From Sideroxydans sp. (GTDB taxonomy: Bacteria; Pseudomonadota; Gammaproteobacteria; Burkholderiales; Gallionellaceae), in the NCBI GenBank assembly GCA_029850585.1, contig JARCRQ010000075.1:1-44433 (forward strand): a DNA stretch of 44,433 nt, read 5' to 3'. A program made the position numbers and the translations under genes. Within the stretch, counting starts at the first letter, position 1, and every line of letters starts with the position of its first letter. This document shows, in pieces, positions 2-27,258 of the stretch. Below the pieces are notes generated by a model that was not told the DNA's origin, did not search any database, and worked only from the letters and a program-made list of their open reading frames with translations.

Positions 2-1261
2 TTTAATGAGTTTTGGAACACCGATTCCAAGACCGAGCTATATCACTTTATCGGCAAAGATATTTTGTATTTCCATTCGCTGTTCTGGCCCGCGATGTTG
101 AAATTCGCCAACTTGCGCACACCCACACAAATTTTCGCGCACGGATTTTTGACCGTAAACAACGAAAAAATGAGCAAGTCGCGCGGCACCTTTATCACCG
201 CCGACAGTTACCTCAAGCAAGGCTTAAACCCTGAGTATTTACGCTACTACTACGCCGCCAAACTCAACGGTACGATGGAAGACATCGACTTAAATCTGGA
301 AGATTTTGTGGCGCGCGTGAATTCCGATTTGGTCGGCAAATACATCAACATTGCGAGTCGCACGGCGGGCTTTATTAGCAAAAAGTTTGCTGGCGAGTTG
401 GCGACCGAGGCGCAAGCGAACAACGCTTTGTTGCAAGAGTTTATCGCCGCAAAAGGCTTGATTGCGACGGCTTACGAACAGCGTGATTTCGGCAAAGCGA
501 TACGCGAAATTATGCGTTTGGCGGATAGAGCTAACGAGTATGTCGCGCAGCAAGCACCGTGGGCATTAGCCAAACAAGAAGGTCAGGAAGCCCGTCTGCA
601 CGAGGTGTGCACGGTGAGTCTAAATATGTTCCGCTTACTCACCTTATATTTGAAACCTATCTTGCCTAAGCTCGCTGAACAGGTTGAGCAATTTCTGAAT
701 GTCGCACCGTTGCAATGGTCTGATGCTGAACAATTTTTGAGCGAAAAAATTAACGACTATGCGCACTTGGCAACGCGCATCGACCCCAAACTGATCGAAG
801 CGATGGTGGAAGCGAATAAACAAAGTATGCCTGCGGCGGAAGTAATCAAGAGTCCTGTTGCTACGACGCTTTTACCCTCACCCCAACCCTCTCCCTTAAA
901 GGGCGAGGGGGTGGTCGTCGGTGCTATTGCACCACTTATTTCGATTGAGGACTTCAACAAGATTGATTTGCGTGTCGCAAAAATCGTCAATGCGGAACAT
1001 GTCGAAGGCGCAGAAAAATTATTGAAATTGACGCTGGACATCGGCGAAGCCAATCCGCGCACAGTGTTCGCGGGTATCAAGTCGGCTTACGACCCAGCGA
1101 CATTAGTGGGGCGCATGACGGTGATGGTGGCGAATCTCGCGCCGCGTAAAATGAAATTCGGCATGTCGGAAGGCATGGTATTGGCAGCGTCGGGAGACGC
1201 GCCAGGGCTGTTTATTTTGTCGCCAGACGACGGTGCAGAAGCGGGAATGCGAGTGAAATAA
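2..1261 (+). CDS. metG: Methionyl-tRNA synthetase, C-terminal part (partial at window start)
   Basis: Class I aminoacyl-tRNA synthetase that charges tRNA-Met with methionine in the cytoplasm. The open frame runs in from before base 1, so the N-terminal Rossmann half with the HIGH motif is missing. The KMSKS signature (KMSKSRGTF) is near base 170, followed by the helical anticodon-binding domain. The last ~110 residues ([20 protein letters not shown] onward) form the Trbp111-type tRNA-binding domain used for dimerisation in long MetRS forms. Between these domains, at bases 875-910, a GC-rich palindromic repeat is read in frame and encodes a Pro/Ser/Gly-rich linker ([13 protein letters not shown]) not typical of MetRS. 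The gene ends in TAA; no terminator is obvious downstream. The family call is certain; the linker's effect is unknown. Confidence 0.97.
875..910 (+). repeat. GC-rich palindromic repeat, copy A (in frame in metG)
   Basis: CCCTCACCCCAACCCTCTCCC-type left arm, short AT-containing loop, then GGGCGAGGGG right arm. It is one of seven related copies in the window and is translated as [13 protein letters not shown] within the MetRS linker. Confidence 0.9.
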
Positions 1262-1326
1262 TGCGCTGCTAAACTCACTGTAGTGCGAGCACAAGTGATT
1301 GCAAAAAACATCCATCGTGCAAAAAA

Positions 1327-1494
1327 CTAAGTCGATCCCGCATAGCTCAACGCTAATAAAGTAATCGCATCGACGTGTTCTAGATACGCCAGCTTGACCA
1401 GAATCGCCTTGGCGGAAAAGCCTATGGCAGCCAGCAAGGCAAAGCTAACGCCGAAAATGACATCGCGCTGAATTTCAAGTTTTTGGGTGTGCAT
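1327..1494 (-). pseudogene. Truncated EamA/DMT-family transporter remnant
   Basis: A 55-codon frame from ATG (1492-1494) to TAG. It begins MHTQKLEIQRDVIFGV and continues with a hydrophobic first helix and the stretch GFSAKAILVKLAY, which I recognise as the first membrane segment of one EamA-type drug/metabolite transporter subgroup. A complete family member has about ten membrane helices and ~300 residues. Here similarity stops after about 50 residues (ALS, then YAGST and a stop), and the 66 bases between it and metG hold no continuation. I read it as the 5' end left after a deletion, not a functional microprotein, although a real 55-residue membrane peptide cannot be excluded. Confidence 0.6.
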
Positions 1495-1610
1495 AATTTT
1501 AGAATTGAGCTGTTGTAAATGAAACGGGCGAGCGATAGCAATGAGGATTTGCGCAGCACGGACTCAATCCAGTATATTCGCTGCCCTCAACCCTTTTGAA
1601 CGGAGCTGTC

Positions 1611-1946
1611 ATGAAATTTTCGAGCACAATTTTGCCTATCACTGCCGCTGTCCTAGTGCTTAGTTTAACGGGCTGCGCCAGTAAGCTGATAGGCGTACAA
1701 GCAGGCGCAGAACGCGTGTCGCTCGCCGAAGCCAATCAAGTGGCGAGCTGCAAACTCATCAGTAAAAACACCGTGAGCGTGCTAGCAAAAATGGGTTTTA
1801 TCGTGCGCGATGCGGCGGAAGTTGAAGAAAATTTATATCAACTGGCGCGCAATGATGCAGTCGATGCGGGTGCGGATACCGTGGTGAAAGGCGAATCTAC
1901 CGCCTTAGGGAGCCGCACTTTTTCGCTGTACAAATGTCGTCCTTAA
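1611..1946 (+). CDS. Small DUF4156-like lipoprotein
   Basis: A 111-residue protein starting at ATG 1611, preceded by a CGGAG ribosome binding site; an in-frame ATG 15 bases earlier lacks one. A signal peptide ends in a lipobox (LTGC, Cys near residue 22), so it should be a lipid-anchored envelope protein. The mature part (ANQVASCKLIS... DAVDAGADTVVKGES... FSLYKCRP) matches the DUF4156 pattern, with two conserved cysteines that could form a disulfide. Function is unknown in the family. It stands alone between the EamA remnant and the convergent coq7. Confidence 0.8.
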   Translation: MKFSSTILPITAAVLVLSLTGCASKLIGVQAGAERVSLAEANQVASCKLISKNTVSVLAKMGFIVRDAAEVEENLYQLARNDAVDAGADTVVKGESTALGSRTFSLYKCRP

Positions 1947-1988
1947 TGGTGCGGGTGAACAATGAGAAGTGAAGCCGTACTTACCCGC

Positions 1989-2615
1989 CTAGACCCAGTA
2001 CGCCGTCTTAGTCATCAGCTTGCCATTGAGCTGCATCGCCCATTGCACGGGGGCGGGTAAGGGTGCGCCACCTAGCTCAACTGCCATTGCCGCATGAGCC
2101 GCTTCATCGCTCGCCATTTGCGTGACGATGGCGCGGCTCTTGGCATCTTGGGCGGGCAAGTTTTGCAAATGACTTTGCAAATGCGCGCCGACTTGGCGTT
2201 CGGTTTCGGCTAAAAAGCCCAGATTCCATTTATCACCGAGCAAACCCGCCACCGCGCCCATCGCCAGCGAACCGCTGTACCAGAGCGGATTCAATACACT
2301 CAAATGCCCGCCCAATTCATGCACGCGCTGCGCCGTCCACGCCAAATGTTCGGTTTCTTCGGCTGCGGCGTGATGCAATTTTGCTTGCACCTCGACCGAG
2401 CGTGCCGTGAGTGCCTGACCTTGATACAACGCCTGTGCACAAATTTCACCCGTGTGATTGACCCGCATCAAGCCTTGCGCGCGCTGCTTTTCTGCTGCAT
2501 CCAATGCCGCTTCAGCAACATCCGCATCGGGATACGCGCGCGCGCTATGTGCCTGACTAAACAAGGTGCGCAAGCCTTTATCAAACTCAACAATGACGCG
2601 ATCTAAATTAAACAT
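1989..2615 (-). CDS. coq7: 3-demethoxyubiquinol 3-hydroxylase (Coq7 family)
   Basis: Di-iron monooxygenase that hydroxylates 2-methoxy-6-polyprenyl-benzoquinol, a late step of ubiquinone synthesis, at the inner membrane. The 208-residue length is typical of the bacterial enzyme. Ferritin-like iron ligands are visible: E in NHTGEICAQ, EETEH in the second helix pair, E in the LAETERQ region and DEAAH near residue 170. In many betaproteobacteria Coq7 replaces the flavin hydroxylase UbiF. It is transcribed alone toward the small lipoprotein gene; a GC-rich palindrome lies just upstream of its start. Confidence 0.95.
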   Translation of the reverse strand: MFNLDRVIVEFDKGLRTLFSQAHSARAYPDADVAEAALDAAEKQRAQGLMRVNHTGEICAQALYQGQALTARSVEVQAKLHHAAAEETEHLAWTAQRVHELGGHLSVLNPLWYSGSLAMGAVAGLLGDKWNLGFLAETERQVGAHLQSHLQNLPAQDAKSRAIVTQMASDEAAHAAMAVELGGAPLPAPVQWAMQLNGKLMTKTAYWV

Positions 2616-2641
2616 AAGGCATTCCTTTTCTGATTTCTACT

Positions 2642-2667
2642 CCCCTCGCCCACTGGTGGGAGAGGGG
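2642..2667. repeat. GC-rich palindromic repeat, copy G (intergenic)
   Basis: CCCCTCGCCC, loop, GGGAGAGGGG between coq7 and the PIN toxin gene. It is the only intergenic copy of the family in the window. With its own ends taken as start and end it lies in the inverse orientation relative to copy A. Confidence 0.8.
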
Positions 2668-2720
2668 ATAAGTCGCTATGCCGCTAACGGAAAAGCTGTT
2701 GGAACGACCCAGCCATTTCC

Positions 2721-3155
2721 TTAATGAACACTCGTTAGCACAAAGTTTTCTAGCAAAATAATGCGTCCTTTAACTTTGGCTTTGTGGTAATAACGCTCAT
2801 CAGCTGTGACTAAAAACGCATCAGCTTCATTTAATGCCACGGCATGATAAAGCGTATCGAACAAGTGATGCTGCATGTGTGCCGCCAAGTCAATCGCCGT
2901 CGCATATATCGCGGCAGACTCGCAGATGCGCCACGCCACATTTTGCAAATCGGCAATATCCAACTGCGCACGCTCAGCACTTTCTCGCGCCAATACTGCG
3001 CTGACCTCGGCTAGAAAATGTGGTGGCTGACGCAACACCACCTCGCCGTCGCTGACCGCACGCAGAATTTGCAAGGCTTGTTGCGCATGAAGCTCGTCGG
3101 GGTGGTTGCGAAAGAACCACTTAATCACCACGCTGGCATCCAACACTAAAATCAC
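2721..3155 (-). CDS. vapC: PIN-domain toxin (VapC-like)
   Basis: A 144-residue PIN-domain ribonuclease, predicted toxin of a type II toxin-antitoxin pair. The acidic metal-binding residues of the fold are visible: Asp in MILVLDAS, Glu in FLAEVSAV, Asp in LFDTLYH and Asp in LVTADERY. Relatives cleave tRNA or rRNA. The start codon is GTG (3153-3155), overlapping the antitoxin stop codon by four bases, so translation is probably coupled. The exact RNA target cannot be read from sequence. Confidence 0.9.
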   Translation of the reverse strand: MILVLDASVVIKWFFRNHPDELHAQQALQILRAVSDGEVVLRQPPHFLAEVSAVLARESAERAQLDIADLQNVAWRICESAAIYATAIDLAAHMQHHLFDTLYHAVALNEADAFLVTADERYYHKAKVKGRIILLENFVLTSVH

Positions 3156-3385
3156 GAGCGACCTGCTTCGCGTGCCTGACGGAAAGCAGCATCCGATAAA
3201 ACAGGTGCTGCGTCACGTCGTCCTAAGATGTTGCTAATCGCATCGCGACTACGTTGCCGACTGCGCGCGCGCTCCACCGCTTCGATCATCAGCTCCGCAA
3301 TGACCGCGCTTTTATTCTGTTGACTGAACACCTCATTGAAGCTCGCTTTAACATCCTCTGGAACACTAAAATTTACGGTTGCCAT
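3152..3385 (-). CDS. Ribbon-helix-helix antitoxin partner of the PIN toxin
   Basis: A 77-residue protein starting MATVNFSVPEDVKASFNEVF at 3385. I chose this ATG over the upstream one at 3421 because GAGG sits eight bases before it and the family pattern begins there. The N-terminal half resembles an RHH (CopG/ParD-like) DNA-binding fold. The C-terminal half (AISNILGRRDAAPVL...) would wrap the toxin. It overlaps the toxin gene by four bases. A perfect inverted repeat 18 bases upstream is the likely autoregulatory operator. Confidence 0.85.
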   Translation of the reverse strand: MATVNFSVPEDVKASFNEVFSQQNKSAVIAELMIEAVERARSRQRSRDAISNILGRRDAAPVLSDAAFRQAREAGRS

Positions 3386-3402
3386 TTTGCTTTCCTCGCA
3401 GA

Positions 3403-3421
3403 TTGTTGAAAAATTCAACAA
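3403..3421 (-). promoter_or_regulatory. Candidate autoregulatory operator of the RHH/PIN module
   Basis: Perfect 8-bp inverted repeat TTGTTGAA-aaa-TTCAACAA, ending 18 bases before the antitoxin ATG. RHH antitoxins usually bind such sites at their own promoter. Assignment is by position and symmetry only. Confidence 0.55.
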
Positions 3422-3453
3422 CTAATTATTCACCAATTGAAGTTACCCTGTCA

Positions 3454-3483
3454 AATAAAAAACGAGCCTCTCACGAGGCTCGT
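3454..3483 (-). terminator. Rho-independent terminator after porin 1
   Basis: A 9-bp stem ACGAGCCTC / GAGGCTCGT with a 4-base loop, followed on the minus strand by TTTTTTATTTG. It lies 45 bases beyond the stop codon of the porin ending at 3529. Confidence 0.9.
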
Positions 3484-3528
3484 TTACTAGCTACTTTCTC
3501 AAACAAACTGGCTTACGCCAGCAGTGTT

Positions 3529-4731
3529 TTAGAAGTTGTGAATTACGCCAACTGACAATGCGCTGGGGCTGTTACCCGCGCCTGGCGTAGTTAAACCACC
3601 GTGTGCATAGCCTGTTGCAGAGAACGCGGCATTCGCTTTGTTGCTGACTTTTGCATACGCGCCGTACACCGTAGTGCGTTTCGACAAGCTGTAGTCGTAA
3701 CCAACTGCCAGCAAAGTTGCGCCGCTATTGGCTTGTGATGCGCCGCTTACCGTCACATCACCCGCTTTAGCCACTTGTGCATTGATTGCGCCCGTTTCTG
3801 ACAGCTTGTATTGACCGCCTACTGTGAATACGCCTTGCTTCATGCCAGTGCGACCTGCTAAAACATTGGCTGTTGCTGCTGCATTGGCATCCGTCAAAAC
3901 GTACTGCGCACGCACTTGCGCGACCCCAAAACTATAGCCGCCCGCAAACGAAGTGACTGTTACCTTTGCACCTGCTGCTGCACCACCCGTTAAACTGCCA
4001 TTCGCCACGTTGACACCCGCAACCCCTAAGTTCAGGTAGTTAAATGCACCAAAAATACCATCTTGGTCATACGCTGCACGCAAAGCAAAGCTAGATGCCT
4101 TGTCCGCTTGGTTTTGGGTTGCGCCGCCAGTAAAGTTGGTGGTAGCAGGCGTGGTGCCAGCAGGAAATGCGCCGCTCAAAGATTGCGCTGAGTTGGGTAC
4201 AAAGCCCGCTGTGACTGTCATGCCGCTAAACGCGGGCGACATATAGCCAATCGCACGCCCCGAACGGCTAGGCACGGCAATCGCACCGTTACCGCCAAAA
4301 CCACCTGCGGTCATATTGCCCGCATCGCCGACTTTGTCGCCAAAGAAGTTGGCATCGTTGGCGTACATATTTGCCAGCGGCAAACGACCTGCAACCACCG
4401 TACCTAAGCCACCTTTAAGACCCAGATAGGTGTCGCGTTGCGCGCCTAACAAACTATTACCGCCTTGTGCCAATACTTCAGTTTCGTATTGATAAATGGC
4501 ATTCACGCCGCCGCCCAAATCTTCAGCACCTTTCAAACCAAAACGTGATGAGTTGCTGGTCAGGTTCAAACCGTTTTTAGTACCTGTTGCTGTCGTGCCA
4601 GCATTGCCGTTATTGCTGTCTAAAGACAGATGCGCTTTGCCGTAAAAAGTGATGTTCGCGTTATCCGCCAAAGCCAAAGTAGGTGCAGTCAAAGCAGCAG
4701 CAACAGCCAATACAATTAGTTTCTTTTGCAT
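3529..4731 (-). CDS. General outer-membrane porin 1 (Porin_4 family)
   Basis: A 400-residue trimeric beta-barrel porin for passive diffusion across the outer membrane. It has a typical 22-residue signal peptide (MQKKLIVLAVAAALTAPTLA then LADNANITFYGK). The first strands read ITFYGKAHLSLD, GLKGAEDLGGG is the usual porin turn, and the chain ends in Phe (VGVIHNF), the BAM recognition signature. The ribosome binding site AAGGAG lies 7 bases upstream. It is paralogous to the porin at 5040-6185: the signal peptides are nearly identical and the leaders share sequence, but the loops differ. Each has its own promoter and terminator, so they are separate transcription units. Substrate selectivity cannot be read. 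Confidence 0.93.
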   Translation of the reverse strand: MQKKLIVLAVAAALTAPTLALADNANITFYGKAHLSLDSNNGNAGTTATGTKNGLNLTSNSSRFGLKGAEDLGGGVNAIYQYETEVLAQGGNSLLGAQRDTYLGLKGGLGTVVAGRLPLANMYANDANFFGDKVGDAGNMTAGGFGGNGAIAVPSRSGRAIGYMSPAFSGMTVTAGFVPNSAQSLSGAFPAGTTPATTNFTGGATQNQADKASSFALRAAYDQDGIFGAFNYLNLGVAGVNVANGSLTGGAAAGAKVTVTSFAGGYSFGVAQVRAQYVLTDANAAATANVLAGRTGMKQGVFTVGGQYKLSETGAINAQVAKAGDVTVSGASQANSGATLLAVGYDYSLSKRTTVYGAYAKVSNKANAAFSATGYAHGGLTTPGAGNSPSALSVGVIHNF

Positions 4732-4811
4732 ATAAAACTCCTTAGGTGAGCGTTAGCGGCACATGCCAGTAACTGTGTTCAAAAACTCTCGGTTGAGAAT
4801 TTCAGGGGCGG

Positions 4812-4839
4812 ATTATGCGCATCGCCCCAAACGAAGCAA
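4812..4839 (-). promoter_or_regulatory. Sigma-70-type promoter of porin 1
   Basis: On the minus strand TTGCTT (4834-4839), 16 bases, then CATAAT (4812-4817), about 80 bases before the porin start. The downstream GAAATTCTCAACCGAG segment is shared with the porin 2 promoter. Confidence 0.6.
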
Positions 4840-4899
4840 CGCATTAACACGCGCATGTGGTTTTTTTGCGACACGCGTTGCCTGTGGCAACATCAGCCC

Positions 4900-4933
4900 A
4901 TAAAAAAACGAGCCTCCTAGGAGACTCGTTTTT
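4900..4933 (-). terminator. Rho-independent terminator after porin 2
   Basis: Stem ACGAG-CTCC / GGAG-CTCGT (one mismatch) with flanking A and T runs on both strands, about 107 bases beyond the porin 2 stop codon and before the porin 1 promoter. The T run on the minus strand is seven bases. Confidence 0.8.
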
Positions 4934-5039
4934 AGTTTTCTAACTCAACTTAGCCTAGCCGTTGCGGGCTAGTTGAAGTTATTATAACCAGCGACTTGCT
5001 GCGGTATTTTGCAGCTTAGTCGATTGGCTAGTAGTTTTA

Positions 5040-6185
5040 TCAGAATGAGTGACGTACGCCTACACCGAAACCTGACAAAGTTGCGCCAGCAGTTGATGCC
5101 AAAGGTGCAACGTCAACAAAGTTGTAAGTACCCGCTGCCTTGTTAGCCAACTGTGTGTACATACCATAAACTTCTGAACGCTTCGTCATTGCATAACCGT
5201 AACGCAATGAGATTTGTTTCGCGCCTGTGTTCACGTTCGCAGCACCACTGTTATCGCCAGCTTGTGTGTATGACAAACCGAAGTTGTTTGCACCCATTGC
5301 ATACTTGCCTGACAAAGCGAAAGTATTTTTCTTGGTGTCAACGCCAGCAGTGGTTGTTGCAGTCATGCTTTCATAGGTAACGCCAACTTGCATCGCATCC
5401 AAACTGTAAGCCGCAACCAAACGATTTGCGCTTTCTTTTGAGCCTGTTGTTGTTGCAGTAACTGAGAAGTTTTTATGCTGTTCAGTTGCCAAAGCAACGT
5501 AGATACCGTCTTGGTCGTAAGCAGCAGAGAACGACATCAGATTAGGCGTACCCAAGTTGTTTGCAGCGTTTGCACCAGCACCTGCGGTTGGATTTTCAAC
5601 GGTTGCATTCACAGTGCTGTAAGCACCTTTAACTTGGAAGCCAGACATTACTGGAGACCAGTATTGAACAGAGCTGTTTTGACGCAAGTTGAATTTTGCT
5701 GGACCAGCGCCCAACAAAGCGGTGTTAGTGGCGATAGAAGTGTTATCGAACAACTCTACTTTGTTATGCGCAACTTTGAATGGGGTATCCCAGTTACCGA
5801 TAAATGCCGTACCGAAATCACCTTTCAAACCAAGATTGCTATTACGCATACCGTTAAACACGCCAAGATTGGTTTGAGTTGTACCACCACCAGCATTACT
5901 AGTAGTCGCAAATTCATTACCCATCAAATTCACGCGCGTTTCAGCTTGGAAAAATGCAGTCAAACCATTGCCTACATTTTCTTCGCCCTTAACACCCAAA
6001 CGCGATGCGTTTGAAGTAACACGACCACGGCTGCCAGGAGCAGTTGCGGCAACTTTGTCAGATTTAACCAGTTCTACGTCCGCATCCACGACACCGTACA
6101 CAGACACGTTTGCGCTATCAGCCAAAGCCAAAGCAGGTGCAGTCAAAGCAGCAGCAACAGCCAATGCGATCAGTTTCTTTTGCAT
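5040..6185 (-). CDS. General outer-membrane porin 2 (Porin_4 family)
   Basis: A 381-residue outer-membrane beta-barrel porin. Signal peptide MQKKLIALAVAAALTAPALA is followed by LADSANVSVYGVVDADVEL, the typical first strand. GVKGEENVGNGLTAFFQ is the conserved early strand/turn and the protein ends VGVRHSF with the terminal Phe needed for barrel assembly. The ribosome binding site AGGAG lies 7 bases before ATG. Signal peptide and leader are nearly the same as in porin 1, but the body differs, indicating an old duplication. The two may be conditionally alternated, though nothing in the sequence proves it. Confidence 0.93.
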   Translation of the reverse strand: MQKKLIALAVAAALTAPALALADSANVSVYGVVDADVELVKSDKVAATAPGSRGRVTSNASRLGVKGEENVGNGLTAFFQAETRVNLMGNEFATTSNAGGGTTQTNLGVFNGMRNSNLGLKGDFGTAFIGNWDTPFKVAHNKVELFDNTSIATNTALLGAGPAKFNLRQNSSVQYWSPVMSGFQVKGAYSTVNATVENPTAGAGANAANNLGTPNLMSFSAAYDQDGIYVALATEQHKNFSVTATTTGSKESANRLVAAYSLDAMQVGVTYESMTATTTAGVDTKKNTFALSGKYAMGANNFGLSYTQAGDNSGAANVNTGAKQISLRYGYAMTKRSEVYGMYTQLANKAAGTYNFVDVAPLASTAGATLSGFGVGVRHSF

Positions 6186-6273
6186 ATAAAACTCCTAAAG
6201 TTTGTCATTCGTACCAGCGGCACGCGCCGCTAGTTGGGTTAAGAAAATCCTCGGTTGAGAATTTCTGGCGCGC

Positions 6274-7300: not shown

Positions 7301-8653
7301 CTAGCCCGCTACGCGCAGCAGCAAGCCTTTCAAATACGCGCCTTCGGGGAAGCTTAGCAACACGGGATGGTCGGCACTGGCGTGTAGATGGCGCACGATT
7401 TGCGCATCAACGCCCGCATCTAATGCCGCCCCCGCGATAATTTTTTGGAACAAGTCTTCGCTGATGCCGCCTGAGCAAGAATAAGTCGCCAACAAGCCGC
7501 CAGGATTGAGCAATTTGAAGCCGAGCAGATTGATGTCTTTGTAACCGCGCGCGGCTTTTTCGGCGAAGGCGGCGGTGGGTGCAAACTTAGGTGGGTCGAG
7601 AATAATCACATCAAATTTTTTGCCTTGATCGCGTAATTTGCGCAAGGCTAAAAACACATCGTCACACTGCCATTCGGCGGCATTCGCGTCCAAACCATTG
7701 GCGATTAAATTGCCCTCCGCAATGCGCAAGGCATCGGCTGACGCATCTATCGACAACACCGATTTCGCCCCGCCGCGTAAGGCATAAAGAGAGAAACCAC
7801 CCGTGTAGCAAAAACAATTCAGCACGGTTTTATCACGCGCGATGGTTTCGGTAAGCGCGCGATTGTCGCGTTGATCTAAATAAAATCCAGTCTTTTGCCC
7901 GTCCGCCACATCGACGTTAAAACGCAAGCCGTGTTCAACGACGTCAACCTGTTCGGGCAACACACCGCGCAACACGCCATTGCGTTCAGGCAAGCCTTCC
8001 AGGCCGCGCGAATCGGAATCGGAACGCTCGTAAATACACACGGGATTGCATAATTTTTGCAGCACATCAGCAATCGTGTCGCGCCAAAATTCCGCCCCCG
8101 CGCTGCCGATTTGCATGACTAACACCGCGCCATATTGGTCAACGATGAGCCCTGGCAAGCCATCCGATTCGGCGTGAATTAAACGCATCCCGCTGCTGGA
8201 TTCCCTCACCCCCCGCCCCTCTCCCGCAAGCGGGCGAGGGTAGCCAGTGCGCGCCGCTAATGCGTTGGCGATTTTGCGTGCAAAAAAATCTGCGGCTATG
8301 GTTTCGTCAGCACGCCACGACCACACCCGAGCACTGATTTGCGAAGCGGCGTTGTAAGCCGCCCACGCCAAAAATTCGCCGTCGCTACTTTTTACCGCAA
8401 CCGTTTGTCCATTTTTAGGCGCGCCATCAACGCGCTCAATCGCGCCCGAAAAAATCCACGGATGACGACGCTGCAAAGATTTTTCGCGCCCCGTTGCCAG
8501 CACGATAGTTGGCGCGGCATGCGCATCGCCTGCGCGCGGCGCACTGCTCTCGCGCGGCGTGCTGGCAGGCGTGTGCGCGCGGGTGCGTTTACGAAAATCG
8601 CGTTTGCCTGATGAGGCATTATTGCGTGTGGAAGTTGGTTTTTTATCAGTCAT
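7301..8653 (-). CDS. rlmI: 23S rRNA (cytosine-5) methyltransferase RlmI-like
   Basis: SAM-dependent RNA methyltransferase of the RlmI (YccW) family, which makes m5C1962 in 23S rRNA. A PUA-like RNA-binding domain begins near residue 48 (IVLATGREKSLQRRHPWIFSGAI), followed by HAESDGLPGLIVDQY and the Rossmann methyltransferase (VLNCFCYTGGFSLYAL). The catalytic loop is ILDPPKFAP and the second cysteine motif is YSCSGGIS. Two oddities: a basic, low-complexity N-terminal tail of about 48 residues that most homologues lack, and a palindromic repeat at 8203-8240 translated as a Pro/Gly/Arg-rich linker near residue 140. It lies just beyond xerC on the same strand. Confidence 0.93.
   Translation of the reverse strand: MTDKKPTSTRNNASSGKRDFRKRTRAHTPASTPRESSAPRAGDAHAAPTIVLATGREKSLQRRHPWIFSGAIERVDGAPKNGQTVAVKSSDGEFLAWAAYNAASQISARVWSWRADETIAADFFARKIANALAARTGYPRPLAGEGRGVRESSSGMRLIHAESDGLPGLIVDQYGAVLVMQIGSAGAEFWRDTIADVLQKLCNPVCIYERSDSDSRGLEGLPERNGVLRGVLPEQVDVVEHGLRFNVDVADGQKTGFYLDQRDNRALTETIARDKTVLNCFCYTGGFSLYALRGGAKSVLSIDASADALRIAEGNLIANGLDANAAEWQCDDVFLALRKLRDQGKKFDVIILDPPKFAPTAAFAEKAARGYKDINLLGFKLLNPGGLLATYSCSGGISEDLFQKIIAGAALDAGVDAQIVRHLHASADHPVLLSFPEGAYLKGLLLRVAG
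8203..8240 (+). repeat. GC-rich palindromic repeat, copy B (in frame in rlmI, antisense)
   Basis: CCCTCACCCCCCGCCCCTCTCCC, loop, GGGCGAGGG. The coding strand of rlmI reads the opposite strand, giving YPRPLAGEGRGVRES between the PUA-like domain and the HAESDGLPG segment. Confidence 0.9.
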
Positions 8654-8658
8654 ATTTT

Positions 8659-9564
8659 TTATGTTTTTCGTTTAGCTCTAGGGTGAGCCGTATCGTAAAT
8701 TTTGCTCAAGTATTGAAAATCTAAATGGGTGTAAATCTGCGTGCTGCTGATGCTGGCGTGTCCTAACATTTCTTGCACGGCGCGCAAATCGCCTGACGAT
8801 TGCAGCACCTGCGTGGCAAAGCTGTGGCGCAATAAATGTGGATGGACGCTGCTAGTAATGCCTTGCGTGATGCCCCATTGTTTTAAGCGTAATTGCACCA
8901 CGCGATGCGCGATGCGTAGCCCGCGCGCGCCGACAAACAAGGCGGTTTCATCGGGCTGGGCGAGTTGCTCGCGTACCGCCAGCCAGGCTTGCAAAGCGGT
9001 AATCGCAAAACTCCCCAGCGGCACAACGCGCTGTTTGTTGCCTTTACCCGTTACGATAAGTTCACCTGCGCTCAGTGCCGCAGGCAGCGCAACCGCCTCT
9101 AAACTGACCATCTCTGCTAAGCGTATCCCCGCTGTATAGAGCAGCTCTAACATGGCTTGATCGCGTATCGCGGCAAGCGTGTCATGGTTAATTTCCATCA
9201 AGCGCATCGACTGCTCGACCGACAAAGCCTGCGGCAAAGCCTTGTCAATTTTCGGGGCGCGCACGCCGATGCAGGGGTTGGCGGTGTAGCCGCAATCGCG
9301 GATTAAATAATTAAAAAAGCCACGCCAAGCGGACAGCACACGCGCCAAAGAACGTCCGCCTAAGCCCTTACCACTCAAGCTACGCACAAAACCGCGAATC
9401 TTTGTTGCGTCCACGCTGGCTAATGACTTATTGCCGAGTAACTCAAACAAACAATGCAAGTCGCGCGCGTAACTTTGCGCGGTCAGCTCGGAATAGCGTT
9501 TTTCAAAACGCAGCCATGCCAAATAGCCTTGCAAATAGCTTTCTAGTTGTGGCGCGAGGGACAT
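8659..9564 (-). CDS. xerC: Tyrosine recombinase XerC
   Basis: Site-specific recombinase that, with XerD, resolves chromosome dimers at dif during division. Its 301-residue length is typical. The N-terminal SAM-like DNA-binding domain (ESYLQGYLAWLRFEKRYSE) is followed by the catalytic domain with the active-site set: Arg in YTAGIRLAEM, Lys in GKGNKQRVVPL, HLLRHSFATQ, the second His in LGHASISSTQ and the nucleophile Tyr in IYTHLD. ATG directly follows the TAA of the DUF484 gene. The dapF-DUF484-xerC order is the conserved chromosomal context and argues against a phage integrase. Confidence 0.95.
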   Translation of the reverse strand: MSLAPQLESYLQGYLAWLRFEKRYSELTAQSYARDLHCLFELLGNKSLASVDATKIRGFVRSLSGKGLGGRSLARVLSAWRGFFNYLIRDCGYTANPCIGVRAPKIDKALPQALSVEQSMRLMEINHDTLAAIRDQAMLELLYTAGIRLAEMVSLEAVALPAALSAGELIVTGKGNKQRVVPLGSFAITALQAWLAVREQLAQPDETALFVGARGLRIAHRVVQLRLKQWGITQGITSSVHPHLLRHSFATQVLQSSGDLRAVQEMLGHASISSTQIYTHLDFQYLSKIYDTAHPRAKRKT

Positions 9565-18986: not shown

Positions 18987-18987
<1 letters not shown>

Positions 18988-20468: not shown

Positions 20469-21533
20469 ATGAACTTCAAACTTAAAAACGACACTTTTTT
20501 ACGCGCACTGTTGCGTCAACCAACTGAATACACACCGTTGTGGATGATGCGTCAAGCGGGTCGTTATTTGCCTGAATATCGCGCCACGCGCAAAGAAGCG
20601 GGCAGCTTTTTAGGTCTGTGCAAAAACCCCAATTACGCCACCGAAGTGACACTGCAACCGCTGGAGCGTTTTCCGTTGGACGCGGCAATTTTGTTCTCGG
20701 ATATTTTGACGATTCCTGACGCGATGGGTCTGGGTTTGTATTTTTCTGATGGCGAAGGTCCTAAGTTTGAACGCCCGTTGCGCAGTGCTGCCGACATCAT
20801 GGCATTGCGTCCAGCCGACATCGACAAAGACTTGCGCTACGTCACCGACGCGGTCAGTCAAATTCGTGGCGCGTTGAACGGCAGCGTGCCATTGATTGGT
20901 TTTTCGGGCAGCCCGTTTACGCTGTCGTGCTACATGGTCGAAGGTGGCGGTTCTGATGATTACGCCAAGGTCAAAACCTTGATGTATAACGACCCGAAAT
21001 TGATGCACCACATCCTCGAAGTGACGACGCAATCGGTCATCAATTATTTGAACGCGCAAATCGAAGCGGGCGCGCAAGCCGTGATGATTTTTGATTCATG
21101 GGGCGGCGTGTTGTCGTACGCAGCTTTCCATGAATTTTCACTGCCTTACACGCAACGCATCATTGACGGTCTGATTAAAGAAAAAGACGGCGTAAAAATT
21201 CCTAACATCGTGTTCACCAAAGGTGGCGGCATCTGGATAGACAGCATCGCCAACATCGGCTGCGACGCGGTTGGTTTGGATTGGACGATGGACATCGGCA
21301 TCGCGCGTCAAAAGGTCGGACACAAAGTTGCGCTGCAAGGCAACCTCGACCCAGTGGTGTTGTTTGCTTCACCCGATGCGATACGCGGCGAAGTTGAAAA
21401 AGTGTTGAGCAGCTACGGTTTCGGCAGCGGTCATGTGTTTAATTTGGGTCACGGTATTTCGCAACACACCAACCCCGATCACGCGGCGGCATTGGTGCAA
21501 GCGGTGCATGAACTGAGCCGCAAGTACCACTAA
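20469..21533 (+). CDS. hemE: Uroporphyrinogen decarboxylase
   Basis: Cytoplasmic enzyme decarboxylating uroporphyrinogen III to coproporphyrinogen III in heme synthesis. The 354-residue length is typical. The N-terminal signature [19 protein letters not shown] and the catalytic Asp in [14 protein letters not shown] are present, with [19 protein letters not shown] and the closing [16 protein letters not shown]. It follows gltD closely, and a REP-like element plus terminator ends the unit. Confidence 0.97.
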
Positions 21534-21540
21534 CGTAAAA

Positions 21541-21622
21541 GGTAGGAGCGAGCTGGCTCGCGACCCTTCGACAAGTTCAGGGAGAACGGTTTATATAGTT
21601 CGCGAGCAAACTCGCTCCTACC
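21541..21622. repeat. REP-like inverted repeat with nested second repeat
   Basis: Near-perfect 23-24-base arms (starting GGTAGGAGCGAG and ending CTCGCTCCTACC) with the GCTCGCGA core. They flank 35 bases that begin CCCTTCGACAAGTTCAGGG, a second dispersed-repeat motif. The arms resemble the GTAGGAGCGAGC-type REP sequences of Pseudomonas and other proteobacteria. It lies directly between hemE and its terminator. Confidence 0.85.
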
Positions 21623-21654
21623 AAAAAGCCGCAGTTAATCGCTGCGGCTTTTTT
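21623..21654 (+). terminator. Rho-independent terminator after hemE
   Basis: Stem AGCCGCAG / CTGCGGCT, 7-base loop, followed by TTTTTT. The upstream A run makes it potentially bidirectional. Confidence 0.92.
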
Positions 21655-21667
21655 ACGCCTAGGACTT

Positions 21668-21700
21668 TTGGTATTACAATACAAATTCTTGTAATACCAA
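21668..21700 (+). promoter_or_regulatory. Operator of the AbrB/PIN module
   Basis: Perfect 12-bp inverted repeat TTGGTATTACAA-(9)-TTGTAATACCAA, ending 12 bases before the antitoxin ATG. Size and position fit a binding site for a dimeric AbrB-type antitoxin that represses its own operon. A ribosome binding site (GAGG) lies between the repeat and the ATG. Confidence 0.7.
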
Positions 21701-21712
21701 CGCGAGGCAGCC

Positions 21713-21952: not shown

Positions 21953-22350
21953 TGTTGCTGGTCGATACCAATGTGCTAATCGACGTGTTGCAAGACGATC
22001 CCGCATGGGCAGATTGGTCTATTGCACAATTACGCGCGCAAGCAAAAGTTCATCCGCTCGCGATCAACCCGATTATTTACGCCGAGTTATCGCTCAATTT
22101 TTCGCACGTCGAAGTGTTGGATAAAACCCTCGCGAGTATGCAGTTGAGCGTGTTGGAACTGCCGCGCCCCGCCTTGTTTTTAGCGGGTAAAGCCTTTGCC
22201 CAATATCGTCATCGCGGCGGCAAAGGTAACAATGTCCTCGCTGATTTTTTCATCGGCGCGCACGCCGCCGTAATCGGTTGCGCGCTGCTAACCCGCGACA
22301 GCAAACGCTATCAAAGTTATTTCCCCACCGTAAAATTGATTACCCCATGA
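21952..22350 (+). CDS. vapC: PIN-domain toxin (VapC-like)
   Basis: A 132-residue PIN ribonuclease. Acidic residues Asp5 in LLVDTNVLID, Glu in IIYAELS, Asp in VLADFFIGAHA and Asp in LLTRDSKRY make the metal site. The conserved C-terminal pattern RDSKRYQSYFPTVKLI is common in this VapC subgroup. It is coupled upstream to its antitoxin and, unusually, downstream to the DNA methyltransferase gene through a 4-base ATGA overlap (22347-22350). Confidence 0.93.
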   Translation: MLLVDTNVLIDVLQDDPAWADWSIAQLRAQAKVHPLAINPIIYAELSLNFSHVEVLDKTLASMQLSVLELPRPALFLAGKAFAQYRHRGGKGNNVLADFFIGAHAAVIGCALLTRDSKRYQSYFPTVKLITP

Positions 22351-25007
22351 GTTTATACAGCCAACTGCAAGCAGCTCGTAGCGAAGAAGACGTTAAGGAC
22401 GCGTACATCAAAGCCTTGGGATTGAAGGGTTACACCAAGGGCTTGATTGATATTCAGAGCAAAGAAATTTGGTTTGAAGCCAAGGACACGGGCAAAACTT
22501 CCAGCTACGCGATGTTCACGCAACTGCTGCATTACGTTCAAGTCGCGCTCGATAAAGGCGAACCTGTACCGCCGTTTTTAGCGGTCATCGACACCGAAAA
22601 AGCCGCGCTGATGAAGAGTGCGGATGTGCTGCCGTTCTTGAAAAAGAAAACCGTGAAGTGGGGCAAGTCCGCCAGCCAATATACGCAAGACGCTTTGAAC
22701 GAAATCTCGGCTTATATCGGCGCGCATTTTGTCTCGTTCAAAATTGCCACGCACGAAGAAGAATTTATCAGCACCGTCAAAGCCGCGATTTTATCGGGCG
22801 ATATTATTCGCACACCGATTACGCCCGACAACCTAAAACAGGTGTTTGATAAATGGGTGGAAATGATCGGGCGCGAGATTAACGGCGTGACGGAAGAAGA
22901 TTACGCGCTGCTGTTTTTTGCCGACATCATGCACGACGGCACGGTGTCCACCCACGACAATTTGCCCGCCGAATTGCTGCATAAAAACGGCGCGCCCGTG
23001 TTTAGTCTCAATCGGCAGCCCTCATCCCAACCTTCCCCCGGAGGGGGAAGGGGCGAACGTGAAAAGCAATCGCAAATTTTCGAGCTGGGCAACAAAGAAG
23101 GCTACCGCCGCTTCTGGGCGATTTATCACAAACCGCCTAAAGCCGAACACCGCAATTATTTATTGGAACGCCGCGACAGCTTGATTCCACTGGACGAACG
23201 CAGTTTTAAGGGCGCGTACTACACACCCTTAGCGGTGGTCGATAAAGCCTACGACAAACTCACCGAGACCTTGGGCAAAAATTGGCAAAGGGAATATATC
23301 GTTTGGGATATGTGCTGCGGCGTAGGCAATCTGGAAGTCAAACACAGCAACCCGCGCAACCTCTACATGAGCACCTTGGACGAGGCGGATGTGGACGTAA
23401 TGAAAGCCACCAAAACCTGCGTCGCCGCGACCCGTTTTCAATACGATTATTTGAATGACGACATCGTCGATGCGTCCACCATGAGCGCGGAACTGTTTGC
23501 CGCCACCCCTGTAGCGGGCGAGCCTGTCGCCGCGACTGGCGCGACGAATTCAGCCCGCACGGTGGGCAGTATTGACTACAGCCTGACCAACAAAATGCCG
23601 CTGGGATTGCGCACAGCGATAGCGGAAGGCAAGAAGATTTTGGTGCTGATAAATCCGCCGTATGCGGAGGCTGCGAACACTTTAGGTAATGAGGGAAAGA
23701 CCGATGTGGCAACCACGCGCGCAGCTGCCAGCATGGGTGATTACGGCTATGCCTCGCGCGAATTATTTACTCAGTTCATTGCGCGGATTGCACAAGAAAT
23801 ACCCAATGCAACCTTGGCAATGTTCAGCACTTTGAAATATATCAATGCCTCTAATTTTGAAAAATTTAGGCAAGTTTGGAATGCAAAATACCTCGGTGGT
23901 TTTATTGTTCACAGCAAAGTTTTTGATGGAATCAAAGGTGATTTTCCAATTGGACTTTTAGTTTGGGCAACCGACCAAAATGCAGAAAAGAAACAGCCCA
24001 TTGTTGAAATTGCAACGGAAGTTTTTGATAAACGGATGCAAGCAATTGGCGAGAAGTATTTTTTCAATTTGCCGAATAGTCAAATGCTCACGAATTGGAT
24101 AGGTCGTCAGAAACCCAATGAAATAGAGGTTTTGCCGCTTATTAACGCCGTTACGCCCACTACCAAAACCAAGGGGGTGCGGCGCACACAATGGTCGGAT
24201 GGTGCAATCGGACACATGCTTTCTGACAGTAATGATTTACAAAATTCAGGACAGGCGACAGCGTTGTTTTCTTCTGTGCATAGCATCGGACACAAAGGTG
24301 GATTTTTTGTTACCGCCGAAAATCTTTGGCAAGCGTCGGTAATTTTTTCTGTACGTCGCTTGGTAAAACCCACTTGGCTTAACGACCGCGACCAATTTTT
24401 ACAACCGTCACAACCGCTCTCCGACGAGTTCAAATCTGATTGTTTGCTGTGGATGTTGTTCAACGGCAGCAACCTCACCGCTGGCGCAAACGACCTCGCA
24501 TGGAACGGTAAAAATTGGTCGCTGGTGAATCATTTCATTCCGTTTAGCGAAGCCGAAGTCGGCGCGCCGGATCGGTTTGAATCGGATTTTATGGTGGACT
24601 ATTTGGCGGCGTTGCCAGCGTTAAAAACACCCTCACCCCAACCCTCTCCCGCCAGCGGGCGAGGGAGCAAAAGCGAGGCAGGCAAACAAAGCGACGCTTC
24701 GCTTCCCTCGCCCGTTTACGGGAGAGGGACTGAGGGTGAGGGACTTTCAGCCGAAGCCCGCGCCGTGCTCGATGCGGGTCGCAGCTTATGGCAAGCCTAT
24801 TTTGCGCACACCGATGTGCGCACAGTGCGCGATGAATTAAAACTCAATCGCCCCGATGTGGGCTGGTATCAAATTCGCAACGCATTGAAAAAACGCAACG
24901 AGAGCGGCGACACCGCCCCTGTCGATTTCACACCGTTTGAAACCGCCTACAAAACCTTGAGCGAAAAACTGCAACCGCAAGTGTTTGAGTTGGGTTTTTT
25001 GCGTTAG
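22347..25007 (+). CDS. DNA adenine/cytosine-N4 methyltransferase, probable type IIG restriction-modification enzyme
   Basis: An 886-residue protein starting MSLYSQLQAARSEEDV inside the VapC stop codon. SAM motif I (DMCCGVGN) is near residue 320 and the amino-methyltransferase motif IV NPPY near residue 436. The N-terminal ~150 residues contain IDIQSKEIWFEAKD, which could be a PD-(D/E)xK nuclease core (Glu-Ala-Lys); this is inference. The C-terminal half probably recognises the target. Bases 23.8-24.0 kb are AT-rich compared with the rest, suggesting an exchanged recognition region. Three copies of the palindromic repeat are read in frame (near residues 225-237 and 762-799). If the nuclease core is real this is a single-chain restriction-modification enzyme; otherwise a solitary methyltransferase. 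Confidence 0.8.
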   Translation: MSLYSQLQAARSEEDVKDAYIKALGLKGYTKGLIDIQSKEIWFEAKDTGKTSSYAMFTQLLHYVQVALDKGEPVPPFLAVIDTEKAALMKSADVLPFLKKKTVKWGKSASQYTQDALNEISAYIGAHFVSFKIATHEEEFISTVKAAILSGDIIRTPITPDNLKQVFDKWVEMIGREINGVTEEDYALLFFADIMHDGTVSTHDNLPAELLHKNGAPVFSLNRQPSSQPSPGGGRGEREKQSQIFELGNKEGYRRFWAIYHKPPKAEHRNYLLERRDSLIPLDERSFKGAYYTPLAVVDKAYDKLTETLGKNWQREYIVWDMCCGVGNLEVKHSNPRNLYMSTLDEADVDVMKATKTCVAATRFQYDYLNDDIVDASTMSAELFAATPVAGEPVAATGATNSARTVGSIDYSLTNKMPLGLRTAIAEGKKILVLINPPYAEAANTLGNEGKTDVATTRAAASMGDYGYASRELFTQFIARIAQEIPNATLAMFSTLKYINASNFEKFRQVWNAKYLGGFIVHSKVFDGIKGDFPIGLLVWATDQNAEKKQPIVEIATEVFDKRMQAIGEKYFFNLPNSQMLTNWIGRQKPNEIEVLPLINAVTPTTKTKGVRRTQWSDGAIGHMLSDSNDLQNSGQATALFSSVHSIGHKGGFFVTAENLWQASVIFSVRRLVKPTWLNDRDQFLQPSQPLSDEFKSDCLLWMLFNGSNLTAGANDLAWNGKNWSLVNHFIPFSEAEVGAPDRFESDFMVDYLAALPALKTPSPQPSPASGRGSKSEAGKQSDASLPSPVYGRGTEGEGLSAEARAVLDAGRSLWQAYFAHTDVRTVRDELKLNRPDVGWYQIRNALKKRNESGDTAPVDFTPFETAYKTLSEKLQPQVFELGFLR
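23019..23055 (+). repeat. GC-rich palindromic repeat, copy C (in frame in methyltransferase)
   Basis: CCCTCATCCCAACC, TTCCCCC and GGGGGAAGG arms; translated SSQPSPGGGRGE. It interrupts the segment between VFSLN and FELGNKEGYRRFWA. Confidence 0.85.
24630..24665 (+). repeat. GC-rich palindromic repeat, copy D (in frame in methyltransferase)
   Basis: CCCTCACCCCAACCCTCTCCC left arm, GCCAGC loop, GGGCGAGGG right arm; translated TPSPQPSPASGRGS. The left arm is identical to copy A in metG. Confidence 0.92.
24705..24742 (-). repeat. GC-rich palindromic repeat, copy E (inverse orientation, in frame)
   Basis: CCCTCGCCC, TTTACG loop, GGGAGAGGG then ACTGAGGGTGAGGG: the reverse complement of the copy D layout. 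With copy D, 40 bases away, it makes a composite inverted structure inside one coding frame, translated LPSPVYGRGTEGEG. Confidence 0.9.
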
Positions 25008-25020
25008 GCAGAACGAGAAA

Positions 25021-27258
25021 ATGCCGCTTCCATTAACTATGTCCATCGCCCGTATCGCCCTCGATATTCCGCTCGCCACTTTGTTTGATTACACGGTGGA
25101 TGCGGCTATGGATGTCGCGGTGGGGCAGCGCGTGATTGTGCCGTTTGGCACGCGGCAGATGCTGGGCGTGGTGATGGAATGCGTGGCGAGTTCCGACATG
25201 GATGCCGCAAAAATAAAACCCATCACGCGCGCTTTGCAGGATTGCGCGCCTTTGTCGCATGAGCTGTTGCGGCTGCTGAATTTTTGCAGCGAGTATTACC
25301 GTTATCCGATCGGGCAAACCGTGTTGCCCGCGCTGCCCACGCGCTTACGTTCGGATGAGCCGATTGTCGTGAAATCCATCGTGAGTTATCGCTTGAGTGC
25401 GCAGGGTGCGGCGTTGGATTTGAGCGCGCTGCCTAAGAATAAAAAAGTGCAGTTGCGGATTTTGAATTTGCTATTGGTGCGTGCGCATAGCAAGGCGGAA
25501 TTAAAAGCGGTGGCGACGACGGTTAGCGCGGCGTTGAAATTGTTGGTGAGTGAAGGGTGGGTGGAGGAGTTTGACGTTACGCAAAACCCTCACCTCAATC
25601 CTCTCCCGCAGGCGGGCGAGGAGGCAAACGAGAAGTGCCATTTATTTAATGGGGCACACACCTTAACGGTGGAGCAGCAAGTCGCAGTGGATGCGGTCAC
25701 CAGTGCGCAAAATTTCCAGTGTTTTTTGCTGCATGGCATCACGGGTAGCGGCAAGACCGAGGTGTATGTACACCTTATGCACCATGCTTTACAGCGCGAT
25801 GGGCAGGTGTTGTTACTTGTGCCCGAAATCAATCTCACGCCGCAGTTGGAGGACTATTTTCGCAGTCGTTTTCCCGATGTGGACATCACCAGTTTGCATA
25901 GTGGGCTGAGTGAAAGAGCGCGGTTGGAAAACTGGTTAGACGCGCAACAAGGGCGCGCCAAAATTATTTTAGGCACGCGTTTGTCGGTGTTCGCCGAGCT
26001 GCCAAAACTCGCGCTCATCATCGTTGATGAAGAACACGATGCGTCGTTCAAGCAACAAGATGGCTTGCGCTATTCGGCGCGCGATGTGGCGATTTTTCGC
26101 GCAAGTCAGCGCGGCGTGCCTATCGTGCTAGGCTCGGCCACGCCTAGCTTAGAGAGCTTTCACAATGCGCAAACGGGGCGATACAAAATGCTCACTTTGC
26201 AGCAGCGTGCCAATGCCAGTGCGCGCCTGCCGACGGTGCGCTGCATTCATACCAAACAAAATTTAATGAAGGACGGCATCAGCGAAATTTTGTTGCGCGA
26301 GATTGAATTACGCATCACGCGCGGCGAGCAAAGTTTGCTGTTTATCAATCGACGCGGTTATGCGCCCGTGTTGATGTGTGGCGGGTGTGGCTGGTTGTCG
26401 GACTGCAAAAATTGCGCAGGAAAAATGGTGCTGCATCTGCAAGACCAACGCTTGCGTTGCCACCATTGCGGCTATCAAATTCGCCCGCCTAAAGTGTGTC
26501 CCGACTGTGCCAGCAATGACTTGCATCCCATCGGCAGCGGCACGCAACGCATTGAGGAAGTTTTGCAAGAACGCTTTCCTACTGCGCGAATTCTGCGTGT
26601 CGATAGAGATAGCACACGCAATAAACGCGCTTGGCAAACCATGCGTGAACAGATTCATGCCAACGAGGTGGACATCTTGGTTGGCACGCAAATGTTGGCG
26701 AAGGGGCACGACTTTCCCGCGCTCACTTTGGTCGGCGTACTTAATCCTGATAGCGCGTTGTACAGCAGCGATTTTCGCGCCAGCGAAAAACTATATGCAC
26801 AGTTAGCGCAAGTGTCGGGACGGGCAGGTCGCGCCGATAAAGCGGGCGAAGTGATTATTCAAACCGAGTTTCCCGACCATCCTTTGTATCGCGCTTTGCA
26901 ACGCCACGACTTCAACGGCTTTGCCGCTGAACAGCTTGCCGAACGTGATATGGCGGGCTTTCCACCGTTTCATTTTCAAGCGATTTTGCGTGCTGAAGGC
27001 AAGGTAGAGGGCGAGGTTTATGCCTATCTCAATCAAGCGCGCACGGCGGCGATGGCGTTGGCTCATCCCGTCGAAGTATTGGGTGTCGTGCCTGCCGCGC
27101 TGGCACGTCGCGCCAATCATGTGCGCGCACATTTGCTGATTCAAGCAAGCTCTCGACGCGCGCTGCAAACTTTTTTACGCGACTGGCAATTTGATTTGGA
27201 TGCGATTCCGCATCACAAACTGCGCTGCGCGCTGGACATCGACCCCCTAGAGTTTTAG
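25021..27258 (+). CDS. priA: Primosomal replication restart helicase PriA
   Basis: ATP-dependent 3'-5' helicase that reloads DnaB at stalled forks. I placed the start at ATG 25021 (MPLPLTMSIAR, GAGAAA just upstream); ATG 25039 is an alternative that matches the usual family opening. The 3' DNA-binding domain (ALDIPLATLFDYTV) is followed by Walker A GITGSGKTE near residue 239 and the DEEH box (IIVDEEHDASFKQQD). The Cys cluster (CGGCGWLSDCKNC, CHHCG, CPDC from about residue 453) binds two zinc ions. Copy F of the palindromic repeat is translated as NPLPQAGEEA between the N-terminal and helicase domains. A 13-base gap separates it from the methyltransferase. Confidence 0.96.
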   Translation: MPLPLTMSIARIALDIPLATLFDYTVDAAMDVAVGQRVIVPFGTRQMLGVVMECVASSDMDAAKIKPITRALQDCAPLSHELLRLLNFCSEYYRYPIGQTVLPALPTRLRSDEPIVVKSIVSYRLSAQGAALDLSALPKNKKVQLRILNLLLVRAHSKAELKAVATTVSAALKLLVSEGWVEEFDVTQNPHLNPLPQAGEEANEKCHLFNGAHTLTVEQQVAVDAVTSAQNFQCFLLHGITGSGKTEVYVHLMHHALQRDGQVLLLVPEINLTPQLEDYFRSRFPDVDITSLHSGLSERARLENWLDAQQGRAKIILGTRLSVFAELPKLALIIVDEEHDASFKQQDGLRYSARDVAIFRASQRGVPIVLGSATPSLESFHNAQTGRYKMLTLQQRANASARLPTVRCIHTKQNLMKDGISEILLREIELRITRGEQSLLFINRRGYAPVLMCGGCGWLSDCKNCAGKMVLHLQDQRLRCHHCGYQIRPPKVCPDCASNDLHPIGSGTQRIEEVLQERFPTARILRVDRDSTRNKRAWQTMREQIHANEVDILVGTQMLAKGHDFPALTLVGVLNPDSALYSSDFRASEKLYAQLAQVSGRAGRADKAGEVIIQTEFPDHPLYRALQRHDFNGFAAEQLAERDMAGFPPFHFQAILRAEGKVEGEVYAYLNQARTAAMALAHPVEVLGVVPAALARRANHVRAHLLIQASSRRALQTFLRDWQFDLDAIPHHKLRCALDIDPLEF
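25588..25624 (+). repeat. GC-rich palindromic repeat, copy F (in frame in priA)
   Basis: CCCTCACCTCAATCCTCTCCC left arm, short loop, GGCGGGCGAGGAGG right arm, read as NPHLNPLPQAGEEA in the linker before the helicase domain. Confidence 0.88.

Follow-up and report, generated by a model that had tools for sequence, protein, structure and literature searches.

Why should one short palindrome recur, in frame, within several unrelated conserved genes of a single bacterial contig, and what could have placed it there? The question is raised by contig C75 (JARCRQ010000075.1) of a Sideroxydans sp. from the Gallionellaceae (assembly of 1.97 Mb in 101 contigs, 95.7 percent complete), whose 44,433 nucleotides (nt) were analysed as a whole and are called the window below; its PriA protein is closest to those of Gallionella and of Gallionellales metagenome-assembled genomes (best identity about 73 percent, full length). 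By its pattern, the repeat belongs to TM_ECO, an intrastrand-triplex motif already described in the literature, and what is new here is the pairing of TM_ECO-type palindromes with the DUF559 (YcjD) domain. No paper linking DUF559 or ycjD to these palindromes was found in the open-licence literature, which omits most subscription journals. We propose, with a probability of roughly 0.75, that the solo palindromes are non-autonomous ends of a mobile element of the form palindrome-DUF559-inverted palindrome, with DUF559 acting at them.

A preliminary description of the window had counted seven copies, six of them in frame within metG, rlmI, a methyltransferase gene (three copies) and priA. All seven were found again, including by a covariance model built on 20 repeat copies of the same genome (matches accepted at E-values up to 0.1), the copy given there as 2642 being among the weakest (27.1 bits), and the in-frame reading of the six was borne out. 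Rfam at gathering thresholds gave no match in the window. The copies and the genes that hold them are as follows (ORF, open reading frame).

875..917, plus strand: palindrome copy in the 3' part of metG, a strict TM_ECO match, in frame, encoding 12 residues between the anticodon-binding and tRNA-binding domains
2638..2666, minus strand: palindrome copy, a hairpin without the head, intergenic between coq7 and a PIN-domain gene
8203..8248, plus strand: palindrome copy within rlmI, with the antisense reading YPRPLAGEGRGVRE, in a loop
23019..23059, plus strand: palindrome copy in ORF 22245-25004, in frame, missing from the paralogue L062
24630..24673, plus strand: the first of two copies that form an inverted pair within ORF 22245-25004, a strict TM_ECO match
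24697..24742, minus strand: second copy of that inverted pair, a relaxed TM_ECO match only
25587..25630, plus strand: palindrome copy in priA, in frame, in the linker preceding the helicase domain
2..1258, plus strand: metG 3' part, the gene being open at the window start
7304..8671, minus strand: rlmI, stop-to-stop ORF
22245..25004, plus strand: stop-to-stop ORF holding three copies, with an NPPY motif in its translation
24961..27255, plus strand: priA, stop-to-stop ORF

For ORF 22245-25004 the three in-frame copies stand, while the name methyltransferase derives from the preliminary description and from the NPPY motif, which we take to be a sign of such an enzyme; the ORF has no family match in Pfam or NCBIfam.

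Each repeat consists of a pyrimidine head, CCCTCACCC, followed by a hairpin, CCCTCTCCC-loop-GGGCGAGGG, and at times forms inverted pairs. The purine-strand pattern of TM_ECO, CCCTCNCCC N3-6 GGGNGAGGG N3 GGGNGAGGG, is matched strictly by 13 of the 50 copies that the covariance model retrieved from the Sideroxydans genome, and by 31 when up to 2 mismatches and a second loop of 3-6 are allowed. Within the window the copies at 875 and 24630 match strictly, those at 8203 and 24697 in the relaxed form only, and those at 2638, 23019 and 25587 in neither; these four relaxed matches compare with 0 in 200 mononucleotide shuffles. Triplex formation was demonstrated for the E. coli TM_ECO sequence, and repeats of this type number 3610 in 262 proteobacterial genomes, with no function assigned (Holder et al. 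2015, PMC4666352, which cites Hoyne et al. 2000); the copies described here were folded as hairpins only. The purine-strand motif, the inverted pairs and the proteobacterial hosts are common to both sets. In E. coli MG1655, according to the same source, TM_ECO is always intergenic and without association to mobile elements (PMC4666352), whereas most of the present copies lie within genes, in frame, and the repeat is paired with DUF559; location does not form part of the TM_ECO sequence definition.

The wider search that the preliminary description had called for extended the repeat well beyond the window, to the 50 matches in the Sideroxydans genome and, as the hairpin pattern, to 101 of 120 sampled Gallionellaceae genomes (the reversed pattern, our control for pattern searches, gave 0-10 matches per genome and strand, mostly 0). 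In a sample of 398 Pseudomonadota genomes, the strict asymmetric element occurs in 85, with no match to the reversed-pattern control. Stop-to-stop ORFs of at least 150 amino acids contain 45 of the 50 Sideroxydans matches, 31 in sense and 14 in antisense, with 5 outside; the rlmI copy is an antisense case. Five of the six reading frames are used, and the encoded peptides are of the types PSPQPSP, PHPNPLP and LTPTLS in sense, and PRPLAGEG and LPSPxGRG in antisense. A stricter count, with a 60-nt margin and 9 matches near locus ends dropped, places 35 of 41 in ORFs, the fraction for positions drawn at random from these loci being 0.83, so coding sequence is neither avoided nor preferred. The corresponding ORF counts are 11/14, 5/11 and 4/4 in the Gallionellaceae relatives G065, G052 and G080, and 14/19 in four distant genomes (0.93 for random positions, ORFs being over-called at their 61-69 percent GC; L279 and L280 of a fifth genome were excluded). 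Host genes recognised by profile include ileS, murC, mpl, lysA, waaA, amgK, murU, cobQ, a fadB-like gene and restriction enzymes.

Judged against relatives, a paralogue and PDB orthologues that lack copies at metG, ileS, rlmI, murC and ORF 22245-25004, the repeats are insertions. The paralogue L062, 81-91 percent identical to the window ORF, is without the copy at 23019, having AGKN where the window encodes a 23-residue stretch (net 57 nt). Among 29 aligned IleS relatives, the two closest (G028 and G094) lack the inverted pair of the Sideroxydans gene, L079 has a similar pair, L085, L091 and L093 carry other inserts at the same place, and a native linker, some 20 residues long, is present there in many others. 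The RlmI alignment of 30 rows has 21 with a short native loop and 9, including our own, with inserts at one point that differ in sequence or orientation; apart from ours, 8 rows have an insert, and in 6 of these it comes with a palindrome of the same kind (at most 3 mismatches). In the two PDB orthologues of MurC listed, the residues flanking the insert adjoin directly. PriA, in 26 relatives, has one linker that is either short or filled with various inserts, with the palindrome pattern in L003, L004 and L005. The MetG insert is common to the Sideroxydans genome and its closest relative G028, and thus inherited; it is absent in G094. Linkers of the same kind as ancestral sequence in distant lineages were not found in the sets compared (Gallionellaceae PriA, IleS, RlmI and MetG, and the paralogue of the same genome), and these insert-free sites support the earlier proposal of a mobile palindrome tolerated in coding sequence, conceptually like Rickettsia palindromic elements. 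Two details fit simple addition less well: the insert at 23019 replaced 4 residues, and RlmI gained net about 9 amino acids over its closest relatives though the element is longer. No target-site duplications stood out in the listed flanks, for which no systematic test was made. The alignments thus show host-protein linkers that serve repeatedly as landing sites. Other in-frame inserts, of the types SPLCKRGARGDL and PSTGSGRT, were also seen in linkers used by the CCCTC palindromes described here (ileS of L085, L091 and L093; priA of L001 and L009); these may be other repeat families with their own partner enzymes.

The lead to DUF559 came from a search of E. coli genomes with the metG copy: in the ten best records listed, the match lay on ycjD, which is a DUF559 gene. 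The Sideroxydans genome has a single DUF559 domain (PF04480, E-value 5.7e-40), and it lies between two inverted palindrome copies. The domain matches the solved endonuclease-like structure 3hrl (E-value 3e-26), and its D-F and E-x-D-G-x-Q-H residues are invariant in an alignment of 27 sequences, DUF559 having been described as a Vsr-like nuclease (PMC12907096). At E-values up to 0.001, it was detected in 145 of the 398 phylum genomes and in 83 of the 120 Gallionellaceae. We then took 60 DUF559 loci as the best-scoring matches of the phylum and family searches, one per genome per search and chosen without regard to repeats. A palindrome lies within 160 nt of DUF559 in 53 of these (24/30 phylum-wide, 29/30 in the family) and on both sides in 38, as against 4/60 for the reversed-pattern control and 0.165 palindromes per kb farther out in the same loci. 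Control loci gave 1 palindrome in 89 kb around the 30 best-scoring Y1 transposase genes, 2 in 74 kb around 20 weaker Y1 matches, 4 in 162 kb around 29 ileS genes, and 12 in 115 kb around 29 metG genes, metG being itself a host gene. At L294, L287 and L286, DUF559 without CCCTC palindromes is bracketed by other inverted repeats of 66, 20 and 15 nt, some of them palindromic.

Repeat and nuclease also vary together across genomes. With DUF559 matches weaker than 1e-10 excluded, repeat number follows DUF559 number in the 120 Gallionellaceae (Spearman rho 0.73); 50 of the 51 genomes that carry 20 or more copies have DUF559, vs 8 of the 35 with at most 2. In the phylum sample it is present in 66 of 85 repeat-bearing vs 44 of 313 repeat-free genomes. 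On a DUF559 tree the palindrome type changes 6 times vs a minimum of 9 in 500 shuffles, the tree being quick and poorly resolved, with 49 rows typed and 11 untyped.

The nuclease domain itself was found in frame within host proteins, together with its palindromes. Such palindrome-DUF559 units occur inside MmeI-type enzymes of the Sideroxydans genome, G002 and G004, in an MmeI-like enzyme of G039 and G067, in MetG of G065, in the asparagine synthetase of G406 and in HsdM of G165. Fourteen genomes, chosen by ORF length from the family DUF559 matches, have the domain in HrpA; in 11 of them the insert is at one point, in frame, stop-free and with 1-4 palindromes, which in some genomes lie only upstream of DUF559, and in G030 it falls between residues 242 and 244 of the solved E. 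coli HrpA. In the other three, G098 (L359), G022 (L361) and G110 (L363), DUF559 is elsewhere in the same ORF, G110 retaining two palindromes at the usual point, an arrangement that suggests movement within one gene. Among the remaining long-ORF cases, G402 is without such a palindrome, and G164 and G355 were seen with no host assigned. The 19 host-assigned embedded domains form one clade that includes members of families f1, f8 and f39 (SH-aLRT, the Shimodaira-Hasegawa-like approximate likelihood-ratio test, 96). The tree has 51 rows, the phylum sample contributing only 5 of its 30 loci, and places L296 (G355, long ORF, host unassigned) outside the clade. At metG and at the MmeI-like gene, the same linker holds a solo palindrome in the Sideroxydans genome and a full DUF559 unit in relatives.

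Comparable neighbours were found at ycjD in E. coli. YcjD of strain 118UI has LSPSPQPSP at its C-terminus, where the frame runs into an exact TM_ECO copy, and two exact copies lie at and past the end of the gene (L341 2295-2535). In K-12 MG1655, the hairpin at the end of ycjD is shortened (RSPSP), with one exact TM_ECO copy between ycjD and fabI (L366 1706-1930).

That the hairpins bracket a DUF559 gene itself embedded in proteins suggests that the enzyme helps the hairpins move. The element model draws on the pairing, the co-occurrence across genomes, the agreement of palindrome types with the branching of the nuclease tree, the in-frame units in unrelated hosts and the solo copies in shared linkers. 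Its autonomous form would be palindrome-DUF559-inverted palindrome, the middle part encoding a YcjD-like nuclease of Vsr/PD-(D/E)XK type. DUF559 would cut or move the palindromes, presumably by nicking or breaking DNA, either at the palindromes themselves or at target sites. Repair or replication would then copy into the break the whole element or just its palindromic ends. Insertions would be retained where the frame is kept and the site lies in a loop or inter-domain linker, so that the host protein might survive with an extra Pro/Ser/Gly-rich stretch or a whole nuclease domain.

Several observations weigh against this model, among them the two departures from simple addition given above for RlmI and for the copy at 23019. 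The window is without DUF559, and the one domain of the genome sits inside an MmeI-type gene. Seven of the 60 DUF559 loci lack such a palindrome, one flank being cut by a contig end and three having other inverted repeats; those 44 of the 313 repeat-free genomes have DUF559 nonetheless, and of the 50 phylum genomes that carry 5 or more strict repeats, 11 gave no strong DUF559 match. The genomes in the co-occurrence counts are related, and the counts are not independent. Support for the model is entirely comparative, and cleavage and movement by DUF559 are what we infer from it. Finally, a study of a Caulobacter DUF559 protein interprets it as a nuclease of mismatch repair (PMC12907096).

Of the alternatives, the one that survives best, and still an unlikely one, is that DUF559 is a classical homing endonuclease moving only its full unit into a cognate site, the solo palindromes spreading otherwise, e.g., by template switching at the triplex. 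Its appeal lies in the HrpA units, which belong to one clade and mostly share one insertion point, a pattern that homing would produce, and in a paper that assigns one DUF559 gene to the homing family EDxHD (PMC9403480). Homing endonucleases and inteins likewise put a nuclease reading frame within a host gene. Unlike them, the present units have palindromic ends and a nuclease domain that is an in-frame insertion, splicing domains being absent in Pfam scans (E-values up to 1e-3 or 1e-5) of MetG of G065, the MmeI-type enzymes of the Sideroxydans genome, G002 and G039, HrpA of G050, G036 and G030, and the asparagine synthetase and HsdM fusions. Homing of the full unit alone also sits poorly with solo copies and full units in the same linkers, with repeat number tracking DUF559 number, and with the 3 of 14 HrpA ORFs that have DUF559 elsewhere.

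We regard as distinctly improbable that DUF559 is instead a host repair nuclease which removes or processes triplex hairpins, is kept by palindrome-rich genomes and gathers palindromes at its own gene. The match to the endonuclease-like protein 3hrl would be in keeping with this, as would the Caulobacter DUF559 protein VsrA, which drives the SOS response in methylase-less cells (PMC12907096). A host gene, however, is not expected in frame in HrpA, MetG, MmeI-type enzymes, asparagine synthetase and HsdM with palindromes adjoining.

Less probable again is that the palindromes are repetitive extragenic palindromic (REP)-type elements moved by a Y1 transposase, whether a REP-associated tyrosine transposase (RAYT) or IS200-like, with DUF559 a passenger. 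The inverted pairs and the imperfect hairpin with a one-sided head do resemble the anatomy of REPs and of REP doublets forming hairpins (REPINs). Y1_Tnp genes, taken as RAYT candidates via PF01797 alone, are present in 91 of the 120 family genomes, with one in the Sideroxydans genome, and Y1 and repeat numbers show a weak correlation (rho 0.19, p 0.037). Yet 43 of the 51 genomes that carry 20 or more copies have them, vs 24 of the 35 with at most 2 (p 0.11), leaving 8 repeat-rich genomes without a match, and hardly any palindromes lie around the 51 Y1 loci examined. No GTAG tag was found in the 19 listed or 20 aligned copies; with no Y1 gene flanked by these palindromes in the loci examined and with such poor tracking of numbers, a RAYT or other Y1 enzyme was set aside as the mobiliser. 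In three of six scanned Y1 loci (L187, L194 and L196), inverted repeats of another kind, 23-24 nt long, span the gene region. The intragenic GTAG and CGTC REPs are likewise short palindromes, occurring as singles and dimers and in frame in conserved genes, e.g., in recB, where two Xanthomonas species have them at nearly the same position; as described, they differ in belonging to other sequence families, in being RAYT-linked or without a dedicated transposase, and in being mostly intergenic (Di Nocera et al. 2013, PMC3733652).

That the repeats are ordinary low-complexity Pro/Ser/Gly-rich linkers which arose by drift, with palindromy from base composition, agrees with their sites being permissive linkers of variable length in relatives, and is refuted by 0 pattern matches in 200 window shuffles, 0 matches of the reversed pattern in the Sideroxydans genome, the insert-free sites in relatives and the paralogue, and near-identical copies in unrelated genes.

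Returning to the element with DUF559 as its enzyme, we note the likeness to the Rickettsia palindromic elements. Those elements are not known to be associated with an enzyme. They too are palindromes in frame in unrelated conserved genes, as is the case here, and differ in length, at about 150 bp vs about 35-45 nt for the present repeats, which also have a nuclease-bearing form; we liken the two by concept (PMC10969869). We further lean, by a narrow balance, to a more general proposal: that DUF559 with triplex palindromes forms a mobile-element class of its own, moving itself and, in trans, its solo ends, of which one sub-clade lives in frame and unspliced in host proteins and the YcjD/TM_ECO pair is the E. 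coli representative. If this holds, the unexplained triplex repeats of E. coli would gain their enzyme, and with a partner enzyme the spread of TM_ECO-type repeats would become testable in E. coli K-12. The solo copies and full units also illustrate how mobile DNA can reside, unspliced, within essential genes: proteins such as MetG, IleS, MurC, PriA and HrpA acquire a linker or a nuclease domain, and the insertions map sites that these enzymes tolerate.

Some further features of the window deserve mention. The inverted pair at 24628-24745 is 100 percent identical to positions 3043-3155 of L062, in the paralogous gene, vs about 91 percent identity in the flanks, a contrast that gene conversion or strong constraint might produce. 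The two genes beside the intergenic copy at 2638..2666 are:

1989-2615: coq7
2721-3155: PIN-domain gene

A second kind of palindrome, with GGTAGGAGCGAGC...GCTCGCTCCTACC-like arms 36 nt apart, lies at 21541-21622 behind ORF 20469-21533. It resembles a GTAG-type REP pair. Lastly, a 108-nt direct repeat (4640-4747 and 6094-6201, 87 percent identical) lies at the starts of two minus-strand ORFs of similar size, perhaps reflecting a gene duplication.

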